Positions 1 to 8,755 of a stretch of DNA of 8,755 nucleotides are shown here, piece by piece (within the stretch, counting starts at the first letter, position 1; each line of letters begins with the position of its first letter). The notes under the pieces were generated by a model that saw only the letters and a program-made list of their open reading frames with translations, made no database searches and was not told the origin of the DNA. The stretch comes from Candidatus Nanopelagicaceae bacterium. Its GTDB lineage: Bacteria; Actinomycetota; Actinomycetes; Nanopelagicales; Nanopelagicaceae. Position numbers and translations under genes: made by a program. The stretch lies in NCBI GenBank assembly GCA_023260175.1, contig JALQWD010000189.1, positions 1 to 8,755 on the forward strand, read 5' to 3'.

Positions 1-20
1 CCCCAAAACCCCAAAACCCC
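1..20. repeat. Ciliate-type telomere C4A4C4A4C4
   Basis: The window begins with two C4A4 units plus a final C4, exactly 20 bases. This matches the known double-stranded telomere of Oxytricha/Stylonychia macronuclear chromosomes; Euplotes uses the same repeat with 28 bases. The C-rich strand has its 5' end at the sequence start, which is the polarity of a true chromosome left end. Nothing similar is expected in an actinobacterial chromosome. The motif is seen directly; its ciliate origin is inference from known telomere sequences. Confidence 0.85.
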
Positions 21-87
21 ACATTTGATTATAATTTTATATTTTAATTATGACCCAAAACAACAAGAATAATATAACTTCCCCAAC
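21..87. other. AT-rich subtelomere-like segment ending at chimeric junction
   Basis: This stretch is extremely AT-rich: by count, 10 of the 60 bases at 21-80 are G or C. The rest of the window is far more balanced. It carries no recognisable gene. The frame of the neighbouring lpd gene runs through it but translates to a hydrophobic low-complexity tail with a stop at 37-39, unlike any Lpd. Such composition is normal for the non-coding flank next to a hypotrich telomere. The junction with bacterial DNA lies near 80-90; the last residue that looks like Lpd is Ile76 at 88-90. The exact breakpoint is uncertain by several bases. Confidence 0.7.
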
Positions 88-315
88 GATTGAATTAAAT
101 GTTGCAGAGACGCCGAACTCTGAAGCGTGGCGCGCATTATCAGCGACCTCGCCTGCATGAAGAAGCGCTTTAGTTGGAATACAACCGCGGTGTAAACAAG
201 TACCACCGACTTTATCTGCCTCAATTAAAGCTACTGATAGTCCAAGGCTTGTTGCACGTAGTGCGCATGCATAACCGCCAGAACCGCCGCCAAGAATTAC
301 AACGTCATATGACAT
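88..315 (-). CDS. lpd: Dihydrolipoamide dehydrogenase (E3), 5' part only
   Basis: Lpd is the FAD flavoprotein that reoxidises dihydrolipoamide in pyruvate and 2-oxoglutarate dehydrogenase and in the glycine cleavage system. About 76 of the usual ~460 residues are present. Visible are the N-terminal FAD-binding glycine motif GGGSGG (residues 9-14) and the redox disulfide motif [13 protein letters not shown] with Cys40 and Cys45. The start is ATG at 315, with GGAG at 322-325 and a 6-nt spacer. Beyond residue 76 the frame stays open to 37 but the protein no longer resembles Lpd, because the DNA changes to AT-rich ciliate-like sequence. This is a truncation by a join, not a natural C-terminus. 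It lies downstream of pepA on the same strand with an 84-bp gap in which I see no clear promoter or terminator. Confidence 0.9.
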
Positions 316-399
316 TTAGTGCTCCATACAGGTTGGATGAAAATCCCTTAGGAGGCCTATCCTGCCACTCGAGCCTTTTTATCGCGAATTAAGGCTTTC

Positions 400-1839
400 T
401 TATCGAGCCATTTCAATCAGTGAACGGACTGTGATACCAGAAGCACCGACTGGGGTATGGCCATAAGCCTTTCCAGTATTGATTTCAACGCCAGCGATAT
501 CTAGATGTAACCAAGGTAACTCATCATTAATGAATTCCTTTAGGAAGAGTCCAGCGACTAATGCGCCACCCATGCGTTCGCCAATGTTTGCGATATCTGC
601 AATAGGAGTATCAAGCGATGCGCGCAGTTCTTCCGGAAGTGGAAGCTGCCAGAACTGTTCGCCTGTTTGATCTGTGACATCTAAGAATTCTGCACAGAAT
701 TCATCATTGTTAGTCATGACAGCTGAATAACGTGTACCAAGTGCAACTACTTTTGCACCAGTAAGAGTTGCAACATCAACCAACGCATCTAAGTTCTTGT
801 TCTCCTGCGCTTTAACGATTGCGTCAGCGAGAACTAGTCGACCTTCTGCATCAGGATTTAAAACTTCAACTGTTTTACCGCCATAAATAGTGATCACATC
901 TGAAGGGCGAGTAGCGGTATCTGAAACCATATTTTCAGCAAGTGCGGCCCAAGCATCAATTGCAATCGGAAGTTTCAATTCCGCAATCGCGAGAATAGCG
1001 CCTACAACAGAAGCTGCACCTGTCATATCCGCTTTCATCTCATCCATATTTGCAGCAGGCTTCAAAGCTAGTCCGCCGCTATCGAAAGTAATTCCTTTTC
1101 CGACATATGCAAGGGTGCGTTGCGCCTTAGCTGGCTTGTATGAGAGATGTACTAAGCGCGGAGGATTGGCAGATCCTTGACCGACGCCTATCAAGCCACC
1201 AAAACCTTGAGACTTTAATTGCTTCTCATCCCAAACTTTTACTTTAACGCCAGAGACTTTTTTAGCTTTTGCGCTAACTAACTCTGCGAACTTCTTTGGA
1301 TTTAAGTAGCTTGGTGGCATATTTACTAAATCGCGTACGAAACAGGTCCATTTAATAGTTGCTTCTACCTCTTTGAGAAGTTTGGCATCGCCATCAGCGT
1401 CGATGTAGATCTCAGAAAGCGGAGCCTTCTGTTCCTTCTTTGAATGGCCACGGAAATCTGTAAAAGTATATGAACCTAACGCCGCGCCTTCGGCCATCGC
1501 TCTGGCGTCATTATCAATCGCAAAAATTGCGCTCTTGTGACCGTGAAGGTTCTGAGCTGCGATACCAGCAGCACGACGAATTGATTCGGATGTATATTCC
1601 TTTGATGCTTTGCCAAGGCCTGTAAAAACAATGACCTTTGTTGCGGTACCAGGAAGTTTGATGACTTCATCAGCCTTGCCGCTTGCACCCAAATCAGTTA
1701 GAGATTGCAGAATCTCCTTCTCGTCCAGTTTGAGAGTTGAAACGATCTCCAAACCCTTTAGACCTTTAGCGAGGCCAACGACGAGAGCGTCGCAATTCAC
1801 TGATTTTTCTAGGTACTTAAGCTTTAACGATTGAGGCAT
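400..1839 (-). CDS. pepA: Leucyl aminopeptidase (M17 family)
   Basis: This is a cytosolic aminopeptidase that uses two metal ions to release N-terminal residues from peptides; family members are hexamers. The 479 residues are close to the family norm. The C-terminal catalytic domain carries the signature NPDAEGRL (328-335), where most members have NTDAEGRL. Metal and catalytic residues line up with E. coli PepA by spacing: Lys248, Asp253, Lys260, Asp271, Asp330, Glu332 and Arg334. The variable N-terminal domain covers roughly residues 1-160. The ATG at 1839 has no Shine-Dalgarno, but TACGAT sits 6 nt upstream, the layout of a leaderless transcript. It is divergent from gcvT and followed on the same strand by lpd. 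No frame damage is seen. Confidence 0.97.
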   Translation of the reverse strand: MPQSLKLKYLEKSVNCDALVVGLAKGLKGLEIVSTLKLDEKEILQSLTDLGASGKADEVIKLPGTATKVIVFTGLGKASKEYTSESIRRAAGIAAQNLHGHKSAIFAIDNDARAMAEGAALGSYTFTDFRGHSKKEQKAPLSEIYIDADGDAKLLKEVEATIKWTCFVRDLVNMPPSYLNPKKFAELVSAKAKKVSGVKVKVWDEKQLKSQGFGGLIGVGQGSANPPRLVHLSYKPAKAQRTLAYVGKGITFDSGGLALKPAANMDEMKADMTGAASVVGAILAIAELKLPIAIDAWAALAENMVSDTATRPSDVITIYGGKTVEVLNPDAEGRLVLADAIVKAQENKNLDALVDVATLTGAKVVALGTRYSAVMTNNDEFCAEFLDVTDQTGEQFWQLPLPEELRASLDTPIADIANIGERMGGALVAGLFLKEFINDELPWLHLDIAGVEINTGKAYGHTPVGASGITVRSLIEMAR

Positions 1840-1845
1840 TTTCTA

Positions 1846-1851
1846 ATCGTA
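1846..1851 (-). promoter_or_regulatory. pepA -10 box (TACGAT), leaderless promoter
   Basis: On the minus strand TACGAT fits the actinobacterial TANNNT -10 consensus and ends 6 nt before the pepA ATG. Transcription would therefore begin at or next to the A of the start codon, and no Shine-Dalgarno is present. The -35 region would fall at the gcvT start and is weak. Inferred from position and motif only. Confidence 0.6.
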
Positions 1852-1856
1852 TTGGA

Positions 1857-1862
1857 TAACCT
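1857..1862 (+). promoter_or_regulatory. gcvT -10 box (TAACCT), leaderless promoter
   Basis: TAACCT fits TANNNT and ends 6 nt before the gcvT ATG at 1869, again a leaderless arrangement with no Shine-Dalgarno. It lies 5 bp from the oppositely directed pepA -10 box, so two RNA polymerases could hardly bind at once. A TTGAGG at 1831-1836 could be a -35, but its 20-bp spacer is long. Confidence 0.55.
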
Positions 1863-1868
1863 GCCCCT

Positions 1869-2948
1869 ATGAAACATTCACCGCTTGATGAAAAGCATAA
1901 ATCTCTAGGTGCAAAGATGGCCGACTTCGGCGGCTGGGAGATGCCCATTGAATATCCAGGTGGCGGAGTGCTTGCTGAGCATGATGCGGTTCGCAACAAG
2001 GTCGGCATCTTCGATGTCTCGCACCTCGGAAAGATTTCCGTAAAAGGTGCTGGCGCAAAAGATTTCATCAATAGCGTTCTAACAAATGATCTAAACAAGA
2101 TTACTGACGGTGAAGCGCAATACAACTTACTCTGCAATGATAAAGGTGGCGTGATCGATGACATCATTGCTTATCGAAATAGCGATGATGATATTTTCTT
2201 AGTTCCAAATGCCGCTAACTGTGCCAAAGTATTCGAAGTTCTTAAGAGCCAAGCGCCGGCAGGAATCGAATTGGTTAATCTGCATGAAGAGTTTGCCGTC
2301 ATCGCAGTGCAAGGTCCACAATCAAAATCTTTGCTAGAAAGCCTTGGTTTAAAACTGGATATGGATTACATGGCATTTAGTCATGGGCAAATTGCAGGCA
2401 AAGAGGTAATCGTTTGCAGAACTGGATATTCAGGCGAGCATGGTTATGAAGTTCTCCCAAAGTGGAAAGAAGCGCCAACTGTTTGGGATGCAATCGCAGC
2501 CAAACTCGGAGAAGGTTTAGTTTGCGGACTTGGCTCTCGCGATACATTGCGTACAGAAATGGGCTATCCATTACACGGCAATGAACTCTCTGAATCGATC
2601 TCTGCAAATGTTGGTGGCGCTGCGTGGGCAATTGCCTACGACAAGCCAAAATTCAACGGAGACACCGCGCTTCGCGCGGAGAAGGAAGCTGGAATCCCAC
2701 GTCGACTCCGCGGCCTTAAATTAAAAGATCGCGGAATTCCACGTGGCCATATGTCTATCTTGGTCGATGGAAAAGTAGTTGGTGAAACAACCTCTGGCAC
2801 ATTCTCTCCGACTTTGAAAGTTGGCATCGCGCTAGGACTGGTAGATACCGCTTACAAGATTGGTGACGAAGTCTCTATCGATGTTCGTGGTCGTTCATTG
2901 GCAGCTGAGATCGTGAAGCTTCCGATGGTTGCTCCTAACGTTAAATAA
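1869..2948 (+). CDS. gcvT: Aminomethyltransferase, glycine cleavage T-protein
   Basis: GcvT moves the aminomethyl group from lipoylated GcvH to tetrahydrofolate, giving 5,10-methylene-THF and ammonia. The 359 residues match the bacterial family length. The folate-binding fold is shown by FGGWEMP (20-26), GGVIDD (93-98, holding the catalytic Asp at 97 or 98), RTGYSGEHGYE (184-194), GLGSRDTLRTE (220-230) and the C-terminal signature TTSGTFSPTL (307-316). The related folate protein YgfZ is less likely because the substrate motifs are all GcvT-like. The gene stands alone: gcvH and gcvP are not in the window. The ATG at 1869 begins the conserved N-terminus (SPLDEKHKSLGAKM) and appears leaderless. 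It is convergent with the S-component gene, with only 3 bp between stop codons. Confidence 0.95.
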   Translation: MKHSPLDEKHKSLGAKMADFGGWEMPIEYPGGGVLAEHDAVRNKVGIFDVSHLGKISVKGAGAKDFINSVLTNDLNKITDGEAQYNLLCNDKGGVIDDIIAYRNSDDDIFLVPNAANCAKVFEVLKSQAPAGIELVNLHEEFAVIAVQGPQSKSLLESLGLKLDMDYMAFSHGQIAGKEVIVCRTGYSGEHGYEVLPKWKEAPTVWDAIAAKLGEGLVCGLGSRDTLRTEMGYPLHGNELSESISANVGGAAWAIAYDKPKFNGDTALRAEKEAGIPRRLRGLKLKDRGIPRGHMSILVDGKVVGETTSGTFSPTLKVGIALGLVDTAYKIGDEVSIDVRGRSLAAEIVKLPMVAPNVK

Positions 2949-2955
2949 ACGTTAG
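2935..2955. terminator. Hairpin across the convergent gcvT / S-component ends
   Basis: CTAACGTT (2935-2942) and AACGTTAG (2948-2955) form a perfect 8-bp inverted repeat around the loop AAATA. It overlaps both stop codons. On the plus strand an AT-rich TTAAATTTAA follows. The stem is AT-rich and lacks a clean T-run, so it would be a weak, possibly bidirectional terminator for gcvT and the ECF operon. Confidence 0.4.
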
Positions 2956-3719
2956 TTAAATTTAATCTCGCTCTTAAACGCAGCCTTTCGTGCTGATCTT
3001 TGCAGCGCCTTTAATACTCCTGGCCCGACGGCGATTATCAGCGCTGCAGTAAAGATTGCACGGGGAACATTCCAAGCCATAGAAGATGCGATGTGGTAAC
3101 TAAAAAATCTCTCTAAGTTATCTGCAATTGCCGCACCAGGAATATATGAAAGCTGAGTTTTAGGACCAAATGCCCATGGCCAAAATTGCAGATCCATTAA
3201 TAGGCCGAAAATTTCAGCAAGAATTAGTGACGAAAAAGCAAGAAGTGGAATTTGAAAACGTTTCAATTTAGGAATACTTCCTGCGATTAACCCAATCCAT
3301 CCAGCAGCAAAGATTTGATAAGGAAGCCATGGGCCAAAGCCACCGGTTAGAAAAGCGGAGAGCAGCATTGATTGCACTCCTAGTAGAAAGCCAAAACTAG
3401 AACCAAAGACGAAGCTGGCGAGAATCAAAAGGAACCACATAGGTTCTATGCCTGCCGCTCCTGCACCTAGCGGGCGAAGCGCGGCAATGATGGCACTTAA
3501 TACTGCAAGCAGAGCTAGTGATTTTGCATCGAGATTTGCTTGACCGATTAGAGCTAAGAGAAGAAAAAGCGCTAAGGGTGTTGCAATCCAAAAGAAAATT
3601 CCGCTTTTGTTATCACTTCCGATAAATGGCCACAGAAAACCCAAGGCGCTAATTACTGAAACTGCAAAGAGAGCGAAGGCGCGAAAACCTTTAAAGCGGA
3701 AGACGTCGCTGGTTTTCAT
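2952..3719 (-). CDS. ECF transporter S component, predicted cobalamin-specific
   Basis: This is the membrane substrate-binding subunit of an energy-coupling factor importer. The 255 residues hold about six to seven hydrophobic segments (near 12-32, 41-58, 66-82, 94-120, 134-149, 157-176 and 218-238) and a basic cytoplasmic C-tail. RPLGAGAAGIE (82-92) and GGFGPWLPYQ (126-135) resemble conserved stretches of actinobacterial ECF S components. The ATG overlaps the ATPase stop codon as ATGA (3716-3719), so translation is probably coupled. Substrate cannot be read from the protein by eye. Cobalamin, a CbrT-like role, is inferred because the operon sits behind a cobalamin riboswitch; a corrinoid precursor or cobalt are alternatives. 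It is longer than the ~180-200 residues of small S components. Confidence 0.85.
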   Translation of the reverse strand: MKTSDVFRFKGFRAFALFAVSVISALGFLWPFIGSDNKSGIFFWIATPLALFLLLALIGQANLDAKSLALLAVLSAIIAALRPLGAGAAGIEPMWFLLILASFVFGSSFGFLLGVQSMLLSAFLTGGFGPWLPYQIFAAGWIGLIAGSIPKLKRFQIPLLAFSSLILAEIFGLLMDLQFWPWAFGPKTQLSYIPGAAIADNLERFFSYHIASSMAWNVPRAIFTAALIIAVGPGVLKALQRSARKAAFKSEIKFN

Positions 3720-5269
3720 TCGATAGCTTTCAAAACGTCATTAATAGTTAGCCACTTTCGTGGTGACATCACTTTGGTGACTTGAGGCGCAAAAGAAGGC
3801 GAAGCAAGCAATACATCCATTGTGCTTCCATCAGCAACCAATTCACCTTCTGCCAAGATCAATATTCTGGTTGCAAGCTCGGCAACCAATTCAACGTCGT
3901 GGGTGGCTATCAAAATAGCGGCGCCATTTTCAGCGCGTTCTGTTAGAAGTTTGGTTAGCAGCGATTTGCTTTCATAATCTAAACCTCTAGTTGGTTCATC
4001 AAGAATCAATAAATCCGGCTTTGGCGCGAGCACAATTGCCAAGACCAATGCTAAACGTTGGCCTTCTGAGAGATCTCTTGGATGCGAATTTTGGTTAACA
4101 GTAGGAGCTAATTCCTTTAGAAGTGCAGCGGTGCTTCCTTTTTCTAACGCATTATCTTTATCTGTTTGTTCGCACTCTGCCTTTACGCTCTGGTGGTAGA
4201 GCAGATCATTAGCATCCTGCGGAATGTAGCCAATCTTTACAAACCTCTTGGTGATACTTCCTTGATACTTAATAACTTCAAGCAATGATTTAATGAGTGA
4301 ACTCTTGCCTGCGCCATTGCGTCCCATGAGCGCCACGATCTCGCCAGACTTAATCTGCAAATCGATCGGCTTGAGCGCCACTTTATCTCCATAAGAAACA
4401 GATAGTTTCTCGGTTTCAATGAAGTTGCGTCCTAAAGTTTCATGACGAGCAAAAATATCTTTGCCATTGGCTCTTATCTCTTCGGTCTGCTTGCGCAAAT
4501 CACGCACCGATAAGGAAATCTCTGGAAGCTTAAGGGCTCTAGCTAGCTTCACGATAGGCGGGGCTATTTTTGAACTCTTCAAGATTTCTTCTGGTTTACC
4601 GATACGAGTTCTGCCATCAGCGCTAATTTCAATGACGGTATCCACATAGCCAATAACTCGTTCTAAGCGATGCTCAGCAATAATGACGGTTATTCCCAAG
4701 TCGTGTACTAGGCGCTGCAAAATAGCTAGAACTTCTTCAGCAGCAACTGGATCAAGTGCGCTTGTTGGTTCGTCCAAAACCAGAATCTTTGGATGGAGAA
4801 CCATTGCGGCGGCGATTGCCACACGTTGTTGTTCGCCTCCAGAGAGTGTTGCGATCTTACGATCTCGAATTTGGTTAAGGCTTAGAAGATCTAACACCTC
4901 TTCAATTCGCTTTCGCATAACCTCTTCAGTCAGATTTATTGATTCCATAGAGAATGCCAATTCATCTTCAACGACATCTGTAACAAAGCCATTGATCGGA
5001 TTTTGGCCGACGATTCCGATTAGTTCAGCAAGTTGACCTGGTCTTACGGTCCGAGTTGAAATGCCACCAACTTCAACATTGCCCGCAAGTATTCCGCCAG
5101 TGTGGTGGGGAACTAATCCATTTATCAGTCTCAGCACAGAGCTTTTGCCGATTCCTGTTTCACCAATTAGTAGGACAAATTCGCCTTCGCCAATCTCGAA
5201 GTTCAACTTATCAAGAATGGTCTTTTCGGCAGTTGGGTAAATCAGTGAGACATTTTGAAACTTGATCAT
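3716..5269 (-). CDS. ECF transporter ATPase with two fused ABC domains
   Basis: This cytoplasmic motor energises the ECF importer and joins the EcfA and EcfA' halves in one 517-residue chain. Domain 1 (about 1-235) has Walker A GETGIGKSS (36-44), Q-loop Gln89, signature LSGGEQ (142-147), Walker B ILVLDE (162-167) and switch His200. Domain 2 (about 285-500) has Walker A GRNGAGKSS (316-324), Gln351, signature LSEGQ (400-404, Glu in place of the usual first Gly), Walker B LLILDE (420-425) and His457. Both ATP sites therefore look complete. The linker (about 240-280) is charged. ATG at 5269 overlaps the ecfT stop by 4 bp (ATGA), and its own stop overlaps the S-component start in the same way. Fused double ATPases are common in actinobacterial ECF systems. 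Confidence 0.95.
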   Translation of the reverse strand: MIKFQNVSLIYPTAEKTILDKLNFEIGEGEFVLLIGETGIGKSSVLRLINGLVPHHTGGILAGNVEVGGISTRTVRPGQLAELIGIVGQNPINGFVTDVVEDELAFSMESINLTEEVMRKRIEEVLDLLSLNQIRDRKIATLSGGEQQRVAIAAAMVLHPKILVLDEPTSALDPVAAEEVLAILQRLVHDLGITVIIAEHRLERVIGYVDTVIEISADGRTRIGKPEEILKSSKIAPPIVKLARALKLPEISLSVRDLRKQTEEIRANGKDIFARHETLGRNFIETEKLSVSYGDKVALKPIDLQIKSGEIVALMGRNGAGKSSLIKSLLEVIKYQGSITKRFVKIGYIPQDANDLLYHQSVKAECEQTDKDNALEKGSTAALLKELAPTVNQNSHPRDLSEGQRLALVLAIVLAPKPDLLILDEPTRGLDYESKSLLTKLLTERAENGAAILIATHDVELVAELATRILILAEGELVADGSTMDVLLASPSFAPQVTKVMSPRKWLTINDVLKAIE

Positions 5270-6009
5270 AGTGAAACCGCCAAAAAGAGAATTGATGAAG
5301 AGATAAGAAGTGCGTCTTTTAATTGGAATTTGTAGGAGCGATATTTGCTCCTCTTTCTTGATATTCCATAACCTCGTGAATCCATAGCTGCAGCAAGATC
5401 GAGAGCTCGAGCTAGCGAATCTTCTAAAAGTGGCATCGCTATTTGGCGCCAGGAAAGGAGCTTCTTGGTATTAATACCGCGCATTTTCTGCGCGATTCGA
5501 ATTCGTTTTAAGTTGCCAACTAATTGTGGAGTAAGAGAAGTAGCAATTACTAAAACCATTGCCACTTCATAGAACATCGGAGGAGCAGCTCTAAGCAATG
5601 CACGGGGATTAGTTAGCGCAGTAGCAGCGCCAAAAAGAATGATGATGCTTGCAATTCCAAAACTTTCAATAACAGTAGAGGAGACTCGCTCCCAAGTAAC
5701 TGGACCGCCCAAAGTTATTCCTGCCATCCAATCTGGCATTGGAATTAACGGCAAAGTAAACAAAGTTTGGCCAGGCACCGGAACGCCAATTACTACTCCG
5801 ATAAAGACTCGAAAGAGAATTACTGCAAAGGCTAATTTGAGCGCCCACTTATAACTATCTGCCCATGGTCCATCAGATTTGTATCGATGAACTATTAACG
5901 AAACTAGCACAACTACTCCCAAAGTAAGCCAGGTATTTTCTAGGCGCAACAAAGCAGTGGCTATGAATGCGCTCCATAGCCACCACGTAATTGGGTGTAG
6001 TTTCTTAAT
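5266..6009 (-). CDS. ecfT: ECF transporter transmembrane subunit EcfT, probable ATT start
   Basis: EcfT is the membrane scaffold that couples the ATPases to the S component. The reading frame extends upstream of the first standard start (TTG at 5952) and codes for KKLHPITWWLWSAFIATAL, which carries the conserved EcfT N-terminal motif LHPxTWWxW. I therefore place the start at ATT (6007-6009), giving 247 residues. No in-frame ATG, GTG or TTG lies between the stop at 6019-6021 and 5952. The ATT is 2 nt past the stop of the upstream gene, so re-initiation or coupling is plausible; the only possible Shine-Dalgarno is a weak AAGAAG. Several membrane segments precede the C-terminal coupling region, with a first Arg-Gly motif QKMRG (174-178) and a second, ARALDLAAAMDSRGYG (200-215). 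If the TTG were used, the protein would have 228 residues and lack the motif. Confidence 0.88.
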   Translation of the reverse strand: MKKLHPITWWLWSAFIATALLRLENTWLTLGVVVLVSLIVHRYKSDGPWADSYKWALKLAFAVILFRVFIGVVIGVPVPGQTLFTLPLIPMPDWMAGITLGGPVTWERVSSTVIESFGIASIIILFGAATALTNPRALLRAAPPMFYEVAMVLVIATSLTPQLVGNLKRIRIAQKMRGINTKKLLSWRQIAMPLLEDSLARALDLAAAMDSRGYGISRKRSKYRSYKFQLKDALLISSSILFLAVSL

Positions 6010-6011
6010 AA

Positions 6012-6542
6012 CTACTTCTTAAGTAGCGACTTAGGTGTAGTTATTTCAGTGCTGCATTCCTTTGCAGGATAGCTAGCTAAACCGCAAACAAAACCTTCAG
6101 ATGAGGTACGAACTGCAACGGCTTTGCTTAAGATCTCCATGCCATTTGTGCCAGCTTTAACACTTACACATTTGCGGATGGTTGGTTGAACGCTCTCGCC
6201 CTTTGGCGCAATTGAGCGAAGACCGAAATCAACAACTACTGCAACTCGGATCATTCCTGACTGTGCTGGAGTTCCGGCACATGTAGCTTTGAAATTCGGT
6301 TTTAGAGTTGGGTTACCGGTATCCACAGTGTTGCTTGAGAATGAAAATTTCCATCCTTCGACGGAGCCATCTTTAGGCGTGGAACCAGCAGGACCCGTAA
6401 GCGCATAATTCCAAGATGTTGATCCTGGCGCTGCCTGGAAGTAACCCCAATAGCGCCAACCTTTTTCAGTTGCAGCGCTTGCAGGCGCAAACGAAGTTGC
6501 GATTAATAGAGAAGTAATAGATAGTGAAAAAATCTTCTTCAC
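6012..6542 (-). CDS. Secreted SCO2322-like protein, first gene of the B12 ECF operon
   Basis: This is a small exported protein of unknown biochemical function. From the GTG at 6542 it has 176 residues. AAGGAG at 6550-6555 with a 7-nt spacer supports this start. The frame is open 32 codons further up, but that part lies in the riboswitch terminator. Residues 1-23 form a clear signal peptide (KK, hydrophobic core, cleavage after ASA). The mature part starts with aromatic-rich GWRYWGYFQAAPG and contains VEGWKFSFSS and RVAVVVDFG, resembling the Streptomyces SCO2322 family. Four cysteines (88, 125, 153, 163) could make two disulfides. There is no C-terminal membrane segment or sortase motif, so it is released or held by partners. 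Its place ahead of ecfT suggests a role in capturing the imported corrinoid; that is inference. Confidence 0.82.
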   Translation of the reverse strand: MKKIFSLSITSLLIATSFAPASAATEKGWRYWGYFQAAPGSTSWNYALTGPAGSTPKDGSVEGWKFSFSSNTVDTGNPTLKPNFKATCAGTPAQSGMIRVAVVVDFGLRSIAPKGESVQPTIRKCVSVKAGTNGMEILSKAVAVRTSSEGFVCGLASYPAKECSTEITTPKSLLKK

Positions 6543-6589
6543 AGTTAAGCTCCTTTTCAAATTAGGAAGACTTACTGGGCTTATAAAAA

Positions 6590-6628
6590 CTAAATAAAAA
6601 AGTCGCTCATTAAAGAATAATGAACGAC
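6590..6628 (-). terminator. Rho-independent terminator of the cobalamin riboswitch
   Basis: On the minus strand GTCGTTCATT (6628-6619) pairs with AATGAGCGAC (6611-6602) around the loop ATTCTTT: ten pairs, one of them G-U. A run of six or more T (TTTTTTATTT) follows at once. The secreted-protein Shine-Dalgarno is about 35-50 nt downstream. It lies between the aptamer and the first gene, so it is the natural expression platform: termination when ligand is bound. Confidence 0.88.
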
Positions 6629-6637
6629 GTATCTGCA

Positions 6638-6652
6638 AAAGTTTTTGACTTT
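6638..6652 (-). other. Small hairpin in the riboswitch expression platform
   Basis: AAAGT and ACTTT form a perfect 5-bp inverted repeat around CAAAA, just upstream of the terminator stem. It may be a spacer helix or part of an alternative fold. No definite antiterminator pairing was found by eye. Confidence 0.4.
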
Positions 6653-6656
6653 AAGC

Positions 6657-6674
6657 CCCGCAAACCTCGGCGGG
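6657..6674 (-). promoter_or_regulatory. Riboswitch switching element (L13-like) complementary to L5
   Basis: TTGCGGG on the minus strand (6663-6657) is perfectly complementary over 7 nt to CCCGCAA of the aptamer L5 region (6721-6715), as expected for the L5-L13 kissing loop of cobalamin riboswitches. Its GCGGG part can instead pair with CCCGC at 6674-6670, giving a 5-bp local hairpin with an 8-nt loop. The two pairings exclude each other, so this segment can act as the ligand-sensing switch. Read from base complementarity only. Confidence 0.6.
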
Positions 6675-6684
6675 TGGTCTGTTC

Positions 6685-6763
6685 TTCGAAGTGCAGGTAA
6701 TCCGGCTTTAACGGTTGCGGGTCAGCGTTGGATTCACACCAAACTTCCCCTGAAAATCGAATT
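6685..6763 (-). ncRNA. Cobalamin riboswitch aptamer (compact)
   Basis: On the minus strand the conserved cobalamin-riboswitch segments occur in order. These are the GGGGAA box near 6750-6745, GGTGTGAATCC (6740-6730), GCTGACCCGCAACCGT (6726-6711) and the B12 box AAGCCGGATTACCTGCA (6708-6692). Outer pairing closes the element: TTCGA (6761-6757) with TCGAA (6689-6685) as P1, and CAGG (6752-6749) with CCTG (6697-6694) as P2. The element is about 77 nt between P1 ends. Only TAAA separates the CCCGCAACCGT core from the B12 box, so the usual peripheral arm there is missing. It precedes an intrinsic terminator and an ECF importer operon, which fits repression of uptake by adenosyl- or methylcobalamin. 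I cannot tell which form it prefers. Confidence 0.92.
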
Positions 6764-6768
6764 ATTAA

Positions 6769-6787
6769 GTTGTAGGCTGGATACAAC
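6769..6787. promoter_or_regulatory. 19-bp dyad GTTGTA-N7-TACAAC in the divergent promoter region
   Basis: A perfect 6-bp inverted repeat with a 7-bp spacer lies just outside the riboswitch, between the ECF operon and the aldo/keto reductase. The size suits a dimeric regulator's operator, but it could also be a 5' RNA hairpin of the riboswitch leader. A possible minus-strand -10 (TATGGT, 6791-6786) overlaps it. No regulator is encoded nearby. Confidence 0.35.
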
Positions 6788-6789
6788 CA

Positions 6790-6803
6790 TATAACCCGCG
6801 GGT
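6790..6803 (+). promoter_or_regulatory. Possible aldo/keto reductase -10 (TATAAC) and GC palindrome
   Basis: TATAAC at 6790-6795 could be the -10 for the reductase; no -35 at proper spacing is seen. It overlaps the perfect 10-bp palindrome ACCCGCGGGT at 6794-6803, which would sit at the transcription start. Weak inference. Confidence 0.3.
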
Positions 6804-6831
6804 AGGCAAGAAAGCTAAGGGAGAGTCGCAA

Positions 6832-7833
6832 ATGGAGCATCGTAAACTCGGAAATTCAGGGCTTTATGTTTCTGAAATCGCTTTTGGAAATTGGATTACC
6901 CACGGCTCGCAAGTTGAACAAGATGCTGCGATCAAGTGTGTCCGTACTGCGTTGGATTGCGGAATTACGACTTTAGATACTGCAGATGTTTATGCGGCAA
7001 CAAAGGCGGAGAGCGTTTTAGGTAAGGCGCTAAAAGGTGTTCGTCGTGAATCTTATGAACTTTTTACAAAAGTATATTGGCCAACAGGTTCAGGCAAGAA
7101 CGATCGCGGTTTATCGCGAAAGCACATCATGGAATCTGTACATGCTTCGCTAAAGCGCCTAAATACCGATCACATTGATCTCTACCAATTCCATCGCTTT
7201 GATTATGAAACGCCACTTGAAGAATCGTTAAGCGCCTTCGATGATTTGATCCGCCAAGGAAAAGTTATGTACATCGGTTTTTCTGAATGGAATGCGCAGC
7301 AGATTTCTGCAGCAGTTAAGATTCAAAAAGAATTGGGTTACAACCGTTTTGTTTCTAGTCAGCCTCAATACTCAGCTCTATGGCGAGTAATTGAAAAGGA
7401 AGTTGATCCAGTTTGCCGCGCAAACGGAATTGGCCAGATTGTTTGGTCTCCAATTGCACAGGGGGTTTTGACCGGTAAATATCTACCAGGGCAGAAGGTT
7501 CCAGCTGGCTCACGCGCTACAGATAAGAAGAGCGGCGCTGCAATGATTGATCGCTGGATGCGTGATGACGTTAAATCTGCCGTCCAAAACTTGAAGCCAA
7601 TTGCTGAAAAAGAAGGACTAACAATGGGGCAGATGGCAGTTGCCTGGGTGCTTCAAAATCCAAATGTTTCGTCAGCGATTATCGGTGCAACAAAACCCGC
7701 ACAGATTAAAGAGAATGTAAAAGCTTCAGGAGTGAAGTTAAGTAGCGAAACCATGAAAGCAATTGATATGGCTTTAAATGGTGTTATCGAACGCGATCCG
7801 AAGAAGACCGCTTCTCCGAATCCTCGTCCGTAA
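6832..7833 (+). CDS. Aldo/keto reductase family oxidoreductase
   Basis: This is an NADPH-type TIM-barrel oxidoreductase of 333 residues; the substrate is unknown. It resembles the voltage-gated potassium channel beta-subunit-like / general-stress reductase branch. The catalytic tetrad is readable: Asp49 and Tyr54 in DTADVY (49-54), Lys80 in FTKVYW, and His121 in YQFHRFD. Other family landmarks are YIGFSEW (147-153), SQPQYS (176-181), WSPIAQGVLTGKY (205-217) and the C-terminal cofactor-binding GATKPAQIKEN (285-295). The ATG at 6832 has a good Shine-Dalgarno AAGGGAG (6817-6823) with an 8-nt spacer. It diverges from the cobalamin riboswitch operon, and nothing in the protein links it to B12. It converges on the DUF3043 gene with 19 bp between stops and no obvious terminator. 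Confidence 0.95.
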   Translation: MEHRKLGNSGLYVSEIAFGNWITHGSQVEQDAAIKCVRTALDCGITTLDTADVYAATKAESVLGKALKGVRRESYELFTKVYWPTGSGKNDRGLSRKHIMESVHASLKRLNTDHIDLYQFHRFDYETPLEESLSAFDDLIRQGKVMYIGFSEWNAQQISAAVKIQKELGYNRFVSSQPQYSALWRVIEKEVDPVCRANGIGQIVWSPIAQGVLTGKYLPGQKVPAGSRATDKKSGAAMIDRWMRDDVKSAVQNLKPIAEKEGLTMGQMAVAWVLQNPNVSSAIIGATKPAQIKENVKASGVKLSSETMKAIDMALNGVIERDPKKTASPNPRP

Positions 7834-7852
7834 CTGATTCTTAGCTAATTCT

Positions 7853-8389
7853 TTAGAAGTTCTTCTCGCCGCGCTTTACTAACGGCTTAGGTGCGCGCAT
7901 GCGACGCATTTGTGTTGAGCGCAGGAATCCGTAAAGCGCTAAACCTTTTGTAGATTCGTTAGGAAATTTTTCGCTTACGCGCTTTTTGATTCGACGACCC
8001 AAGAACCAGCCATCGATGATTGCGATAAACATAATTACGTACATCATCAAGATTGAGAGAATCGCGACTGTTTGATTGCGAGTCATTGAAACAAGTAGTA
8101 CCAAGAAGATAAATGGCAAGAAGTATTCGCCAACGTTGATACGCGCATCGACAATGTTTCGAACATACTTGCGGACCGGACCGCGATCACGTGCCGGAAG
8201 TGCGCTCTCATCACCACGCATAAATGCATTTCGTTGAGCCAGGCGTTGAACACGAGCCTCTGCCTTGGCAGCTCGCTTCTCTTCCTTGGTTCGCGCCGGA
8301 GCTAGGGAAGCGCCAGGCTTCACAGTCTTCTCTTTGCGCTTCGGGGTAGGACGACCTTTAGATTCAGTCTGCTTCTCACTCATGGGCAT
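7853..8389 (-). CDS. DUF3043 family membrane protein
   Basis: This is a conserved actinobacterial protein of unknown function. Its 178 residues begin with a long, highly basic cytoplasmic segment (about 1-55, rich in Lys/Arg/Ala and likely helical). Then comes the family core MRGDESALPARDRGPVRKY (57-75), two hydrophobic membrane segments (about 88-102 and 107-130) and a second basic region with PKPLVKRGE near the end (168-175). The start is uncertain: ATG at 8389 and ATG at 8383 are in frame, and neither has a Shine-Dalgarno. The sequence TAAGAAT upstream would suit a leaderless start at 8383, though it is one base longer than TANNNT. It is divergent from the Fe-S protein gene. DUF3043 presence is one of the main pointers to Actinomycetota. 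Confidence 0.9.
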   Translation of the reverse strand: MPMSEKQTESKGRPTPKRKEKTVKPGASLAPARTKEEKRAAKAEARVQRLAQRNAFMRGDESALPARDRGPVRKYVRNIVDARINVGEYFLPFIFLVLLVSMTRNQTVAILSILMMYVIMFIAIIDGWFLGRRIKKRVSEKFPNESTKGLALYGFLRSTQMRRMRAPKPLVKRGEKNF

Positions 8390-8432
8390 ATTCTTATTAG
8401 CCGTGGCGTTATTGTCTAAACGGAATCAGGAG

Positions 8433-8438
8433 TAAGAT
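8433..8438 (+). promoter_or_regulatory. Possible -10 box (TAAGAT) of the ErpA/IscA gene
   Basis: TAAGAT fits the TANNNT consensus, with TTGTCT at 8412-8417 as a possible -35; the 15-bp spacer is short. The start of transcription would leave a leader of about 30 nt that contains the Shine-Dalgarno at 8465-8470. Confidence 0.4.
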
Positions 8439-8476
8439 TTCGGTCAGAGGGTTAGTAAAGCCTTAAGGAGAGAAGT

Positions 8477-8755
8477 ATGAGCACAGATACCGGCATCAGC
8501 CTTACCGATGTAGCAAGCGAGAAGGTCGCAAGCCTTTTGGCACAGGAGGGTCGCGATGACCTATACCTACGCGTTGCGGTACAGCCAGGCGGTTGTTCAG
8601 GCCTTCGCTACCAGCTCTATTTCGATGATCGCGCGATGGATGATGATGTCGAGCGCTCATTTGGCACCGTAAAGGTCAAGGTCGACAAGATGAGCGACCC
8701 ATACCTAGCTGGAGCAACGATCGACTTCGTGGACACTATCGAGAAGCAGGGCTTC
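8477..8755 (+). CDS. ErpA/IscA-type iron-sulfur cluster insertion protein, partial
   Basis: This A-type carrier delivers Fe-S clusters to client proteins in the cytoplasm. The ATG at 8477 has AAGGAG at 8465-8470 with a 6-nt spacer. The 93 codons up to the window edge are all open. Visible family features are the early ISLTDVASEKV, then VAVQPGGCSGLRYQLYFDD with the first conserved cysteine at residue 40, and SDPYLAGATIDFVDTIEKQGF leading to the cluster-binding end. The C-terminal Cys-x-Cys pair lies past the edge, so cluster-binding ability cannot be confirmed. Family length is about 110-120 residues, so some 20-30 are missing. The gene is cut by the window, not broken. ErpA versus another IscA/HesB paralogue cannot be settled by eye. 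Confidence 0.93.
   Translation, partial: MSTDTGISLTDVASEKVASLLAQEGRDDLYLRVAVQPGGCSGLRYQLYFDDRAMDDDVERSFGTVKVKVDKMSDPYLAGATIDFVDTIEKQGF

Follow-up and report, generated by a model that had tools for sequence, protein, structure and literature searches.

We hold with high confidence that the window, by which we mean the whole 8,755-nucleotide stretch of DNA analysed here, is a chimeric contig in which the tip of a hypotrich nanochromosome was joined accidentally to Nanopelagicaceae DNA, in the library or at assembly. It is almost certainly an artefact, one of a type met repeatedly in public databases, and does not represent gene transfer. The evidence comes from the two sides of the junction, from the occurrence of the same telomeric 20-mer in viral contigs and bacterial genome bins, and from phage relatives that lack the ciliate piece.

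A hypotrich-type chromosome end and an interrupted gene

The preliminary description of this DNA had reported an exact 20-base C4A4C4A4C4 from base 1, followed by DNA of very low G+C content, and the letters bear out both points (Table 1). The 60 bases at 21–80 hold 10 G/C, against a minimum of 15 among all 60-base stretches that begin at or beyond base 101, and the 67 bases at 21–87 hold 15. At the base composition of the window, only 1e-8 copies of the 20-mer would be expected on both strands of the whole stretch. With at most one mismatch allowed, CCCCAAAACCCC occurs in the window only at 1–20, as two overlapping matches, a number that none of 200 shuffles reached. Bases 1–20 are firmly identified as a telomere of the Oxytricha/Stylonychia kind. 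The Stylonychia genome paper selected reads that open with these 20 bases, the telomeric repeat it found most often (PMC4122937), and the Oxytricha genome report describes telomeres followed by a subtelomere of about 50 bp with biased composition (PMC3558436). The first 86 bases of the window present two features expected of a hypotrich nanochromosome end, the outward-facing repeat at a physical end and the AT-rich stretch behind it, and a ciliate origin of 21–86 is strongly indicated.

Table 1. Features of the window, with positions counted from its first base.
Feature	Position	Strand	Basis
Hypotrich-type telomere, exact C4A4C4A4C4 (CCCCAAAACCCCAAAACCCC)	1..20	+	C-rich strand begins (5' end) at base 1, pointing outward
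AT-rich stretch, read as ciliate subtelomere or 5' untranslated DNA	21..86	+	Composition; no family match left of 87
Junction	86..89		L001 match from 89, leftmost listed family match from 87; 87–88 assignable to either side
lpd (dihydrolipoyl dehydrogenase), 5' part, residues 1–76, cut by the junction	87..315	-	Pyr_redox_2 (PF07992), 8e-15
M17 aminopeptidase, GCV_T-type protein, ECF transporter S component, ABC ATPase	within 400..8755		Pfam matches
CbiQ-type protein, protein without Pfam match, aldo/keto reductase, DUF3043 protein	within 400..8755		Pfam
Fe-S biosynthesis protein, truncated by the window end	within 400..8755		Pfam match

The composition of this cap falls within the range of other telomere-adjacent ends: its first 40 bases after the telomere contain 6 G/C, against 0–17 (median 8) in 21 others. 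A position-specific subtelomere profile was built from those 21 ends, the one contig with an internal match (L050) having been excluded beforehand. On this profile the window scored below its own shuffle mean, with 75% of shuffles equal to or above it, and in leave-one-out scoring only five of the 21 ends themselves reached 0.05 or less. A 35-mer taken from the cap had no exact match in IMG/VR. When bases 1–400 were compared by BLAST with phages (10 records), the best eight of the 10 records matched inside 12–80 at E values of 0.009 or worse; with plasmids (22 records), the best eight of the 22 all began at base 126 or rightward.

The cap gives way to bacterial DNA inside a gene. Read on the minus strand, lpd is intact from its Met (base 315) to residue 76, where it had earlier been said to be interrupted, and diverges thereafter. 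The alignment to contig L001, from a Candidatus Nanopelagicaceae genome, together with the family matches, sets the break between 86/87 and 88/89, the same place as before. Of these 76 residues, 73 are identical to the L001 copy, which is 454 amino acids long, and lpd continues beyond residue 76 in all eight relatives fetched (the best eight of 97 matching genomes), among them the locus L063 from the genome of L001. After an Ile, the eight loci read Asp-Met and then VN-x-YKDGV, whereas the window reads Val-Gly-Glu. There is thus an abrupt loss of homology within a gene that is whole in relatives, as looked for in chimeric contigs. In a search of 151 family genomes, 97 of which gave a match, none of the matches listed lay to the left of base 87.

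On the other side of the junction, positions 89–8755 form one single alignment to L001 at 75% nucleotide identity, and the aminopeptidases of the two contigs share 90% protein identity. The genes of 400–8755 are ordinary bacterial genes of the Nanopelagicaceae, the freshwater acI lineage, and the window ends at 8755 within an open reading frame. Ciliate-like gene structure was not found in the bacterial part, which consists of densely packed table 11 genes and the single 8.7 kb alignment to L001. Separately, a match to the AdoCbl-II cobalamin riboswitch lies on the minus strand at 6687–6769 (E 3.8e-6; 32.7 bits, against an Rfam gathering threshold of 36.5), upstream of the gene without Pfam match and the CbiQ-, ABC- and ECF-type transporter genes. 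This sub-threshold match and its position suggest a cobalamin-related uptake operon nearby; at the gathering threshold, Rfam gave nothing in the window.

The same 20-mer in viral contigs and bacterial genome bins

The 20-mer was found in 16 IMG/VR contigs. In 15 of these it forms the exact contig end with outward polarity, and L050, where it is internal, is the sole exception; the opposite polarity was seen at a contig end in none of the 16. A control 16-mer, AAAACCCCAAAACCCC, occurred in 46 contigs, namely the same 16 and 30 others, and in none of the 30 with the 16-mer only was it terminal, the closest lying 190 bases from the end of the stored stretch. This difference (15 of 16 as opposed to 0 of 30) argues that the 20-mer marks physical chromosome ends.

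Several of these contigs carry genes of phage type. Among 20 proteins scanned, from 11 of the 16 contigs, we identified a terminase on each of L053 and L059, and an NAD-dependent ligase and a DnaB-like helicase on L057; a primase/helicase (L052) and a groEL family gene (L045) were also seen. Another of these IMG/VR entries, L049 (positions 1–4121), is filed as viral; with a type II topoisomerase gene and 36-base C4A4 telomeres at both ends, it looks like a complete ciliate nanochromosome.

Using patterns from inside five telomere-bearing contigs (L053, L054, L057, L058 and L059), we fetched relatives of their phage parts, and in four of the five the ciliate piece was missing from the relatives. 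L058 matches L114 (2450 bp) and L115 (1638 bp) at 100% identity and diverges from them at base 51, while L053 shares 98.6–98.9% identity over 1336 bp with L107 and L108 and diverges at base 62. L057 begins with 905 bases that carry a telomere at each end, apparently a complete nanochromosome, and phage DNA follows directly on the right tip of this piece, with a short G run shared at the join. The phage part is 99.8% identical to L125 and L129 over 1598 bp, and in 20 of the 21 relatives non-telomeric sequence extends leftward past the join, the remaining one starting inside the phage part. The six relatives of L059 are more distant (75–77% identical), and their matches begin at 90, 100, 100, 105, 125 and 125, so that the junction is placed only to about 89–99; four of the six still have phage sequence leftward of about 90–100, one ends there, and one differs leftward. 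The junction of L054 is not pinned, because the matches of its relatives begin at query base 142 or later. Where it could be bounded, the cap measures 50 bases (L058), about 61 (L053), about 89–99 (L059) and 86–88 in the window.

Telomeres of the same kind occur in bacterial genome bins. In the order to which the genome of L001 belongs, the 20-mer was present in two of 296 genomes, G205 and G101 (the 20-mer reads the same backwards, which makes a reversed-pattern control of this whole-genome search uninformative). In G205 it lies at position 8583 of a 9410-base contig (G205:C157, L117). To the left of the telomere are bacterial genes including a transketolase, the last frame of which is cut to 74 codons; the same frame is 289–357 amino acids long in 39 genomes besides G205 (of 41 family genomes searched, that of L001 among them, 40 matched). 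To the right, within a ciliate piece of 828 bases including the telomere (8583–9410), is a ciliate-code frame with a UPF1_Zn_bind domain (E 1.3e-39). This contig is another bacterium–hypotrich fusion in the family of the window, joined at the telomere tip. The G101 contig (G101:C73, L060 and L062) is 3233 bases long and has a hypotrich telomere at or close to each end; it is probably a whole nanochromosome that was mis-binned. In the class of a Flavobacteriales genome, one of 395 genomes contained the 20-mer (G634:C319, L118, at 7955), with a long open frame without Pfam match to the left of the telomere, which we read as phage-like, and somewhat AT-richer DNA to the right.

Origin of the join

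The preliminary description had named a chimera as the likeliest cause, and this is supported by the 15 IMG/VR contigs with a terminal 20-mer, several of them carrying phage genes, by three phage contigs whose 98.6–100% identical relatives have no ciliate piece, and by the second fusion in the family, in G205. Given these observations, the window is one of a recurrent class of hypotrich–prokaryote chimeras. No near-identical uncapped copy of the window contig was found, its closest relative standing at 75% nucleotide identity, and support for its own join as chimeric therefore comes from the interrupted gene and, by analogy, from the other contigs.

We infer that the two pieces came together during library preparation or assembly. 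A fragment of a nanochromosome end, consisting of a 20-base duplex telomere and about 66 bases of subtelomere, may have become attached in the tube to Nanopelagicaceae DNA broken by shearing; alternatively, one or a few chimeric reads may have bridged the two at assembly. From a chimeric fragment containing less than one read of ciliate DNA, the assembler would extend the bacterial contig and halt where the ciliate molecule ends, which would be why the contig stops at base 1. Such a stop within the length of a read would give caps like those of L058, L053, L059 and the window; from 50 to about 99 bases long, each fits in one short read. The ciliate pieces of L057 (905 bases) and G205:C157 (828 bases) exceed this one-short-read account and would need more than one read. 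With tens of millions of telomeres described for each Oxytricha macronucleus (PMC3558436), few other kinds of DNA end should be as abundant in such a sample as the tips of nanochromosomes. In an RNA-seq study, chimeric reads formed as library by-products are described as yielding foreign sequence mainly at contig extremities (PMC8376068), and the Oxytricha genome project mentions splitting about 9% of its contigs for possible chimerism (PMC3558436); as a counterpoint, the Stylonychia project did not regard chimerism as a significant problem in the assemblies it produced (PMC4122937). Whether the bacterium was prey or symbiont cannot be inferred from a join of this kind.

Hypotrichs feed on bacteria and add telomeres de novo, and bacterial DNA that reached a hypotrich macronucleus could in principle have been attached to the end of a nanochromosome or given a telomere by telomerase, which would make the junction a real cellular molecule. 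The exact telomere at base 1, in the correct polarity, agrees with such a capture, and the passage of bacterial genes into ciliates has been reported, for instance in Euplotes (PMC13071891) and in the case of trehalose genes (PMC13166879). We nevertheless consider it very improbable. The case made against it in the preliminary description, from the AT-rich filler and the dense bacterial genes, holds: about 66 AT-rich, non-bacterial bases lie between the telomere and lpd, which is not what simple capping would leave, and the bacterial side carries a series of closely packed genes, colinear with L001, with lpd cut. Similar joins, moreover, involve several phages, three of which have close relatives without the ciliate piece. 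In the Euplotes focardii genome, according to its authors, nanochromosomes with bacterial sequence were not found (PMC8455672); the same paper describes the removal of high-G+C, low-coverage contigs from that assembly, a cleaning that could have discarded such molecules (PMC8455672). Direct addition of a telomere to bacterial DNA was rejected on account of the intervening AT-rich stretch. It is just as hard to credit that phage and prokaryote DNA is truly ligated to nanochromosome ends in living hypotrichs, in food vacuoles or the macronucleus, with the contigs as snapshots of this process.

An entirely bacterial origin of the first 87 bases, as an AT-rich insertion of the strain or a chromosome end with chance C4A4 repeats, is the least probable reading of all. 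The window does contain other AT-rich stretches, the lowest with 15 G/C in 60, but chance repeats sit poorly with the 1e-8 expectation for the 20-mer, lpd would be broken, and the matches listed in 151 family genomes include none left of 87. The two order genomes (of 296) with the 20-mer carry it, respectively, on the 3233-base contig with telomeres near or at both ends and in the UPF1 fusion. A ciliate cap could also have come from a germline transposon with C4A4 repeats, or from some non-hypotrich ciliate, sources we think highly unlikely. Oxytricha TBE transposons are described as carrying C4A4 repeats (PMC3558436); against this, the window has exactly 20 bases ending at base 1, like the chromosome-end reads of Stylonychia (PMC4122937), and with the telomere number given for the Oxytricha macronucleus (PMC3558436), macronuclear ends should dominate over a transposon source.

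Significance and comparison with known systems

Biologically, the ciliate–bacterium join of the window is nothing new. Its use is practical: looking for an exact C4A4C4A4C4 at contig ends is an inexpensive way to pick out hypotrich–prokaryote chimeras, as well as ciliate contigs deposited under viruses or assigned to bacterial bins. If they are not marked, contigs of these kinds could be mistaken for evidence that genes had moved between ciliates and phages or bacteria. Among literature titles and abstract openings we found no report of bacterial or phage contigs capped by ciliate telomeres, and reports in print may exist.

Like the end of an Oxytricha or Stylonychia nanochromosome, the window has a terminal, outward-facing, exact C4A4C4A4C4 followed by about 66 AT-rich bases; unlike such an end, it becomes bacterial DNA after 86–88 bases and has no ciliate gene there. 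The contigs L053, L057, L058, L059, G205:C157 and G634:C319 share with it the 20-mer and the abutment of ciliate-like DNA on prokaryotic or phage-like DNA, and differ in their partners and adjoining sequences. L057, G205:C157 and G634:C319 are joined at the telomere tip, whereas the window is joined inside the subtelomere. The virus–rRNA chimeric contigs described in the RNA-seq study (PMC8376068) have other partners than the ciliate chromosome tip and bacterial chromosome of the window, but they resemble it in having the foreign piece at one extremity and a sharp break within a gene.
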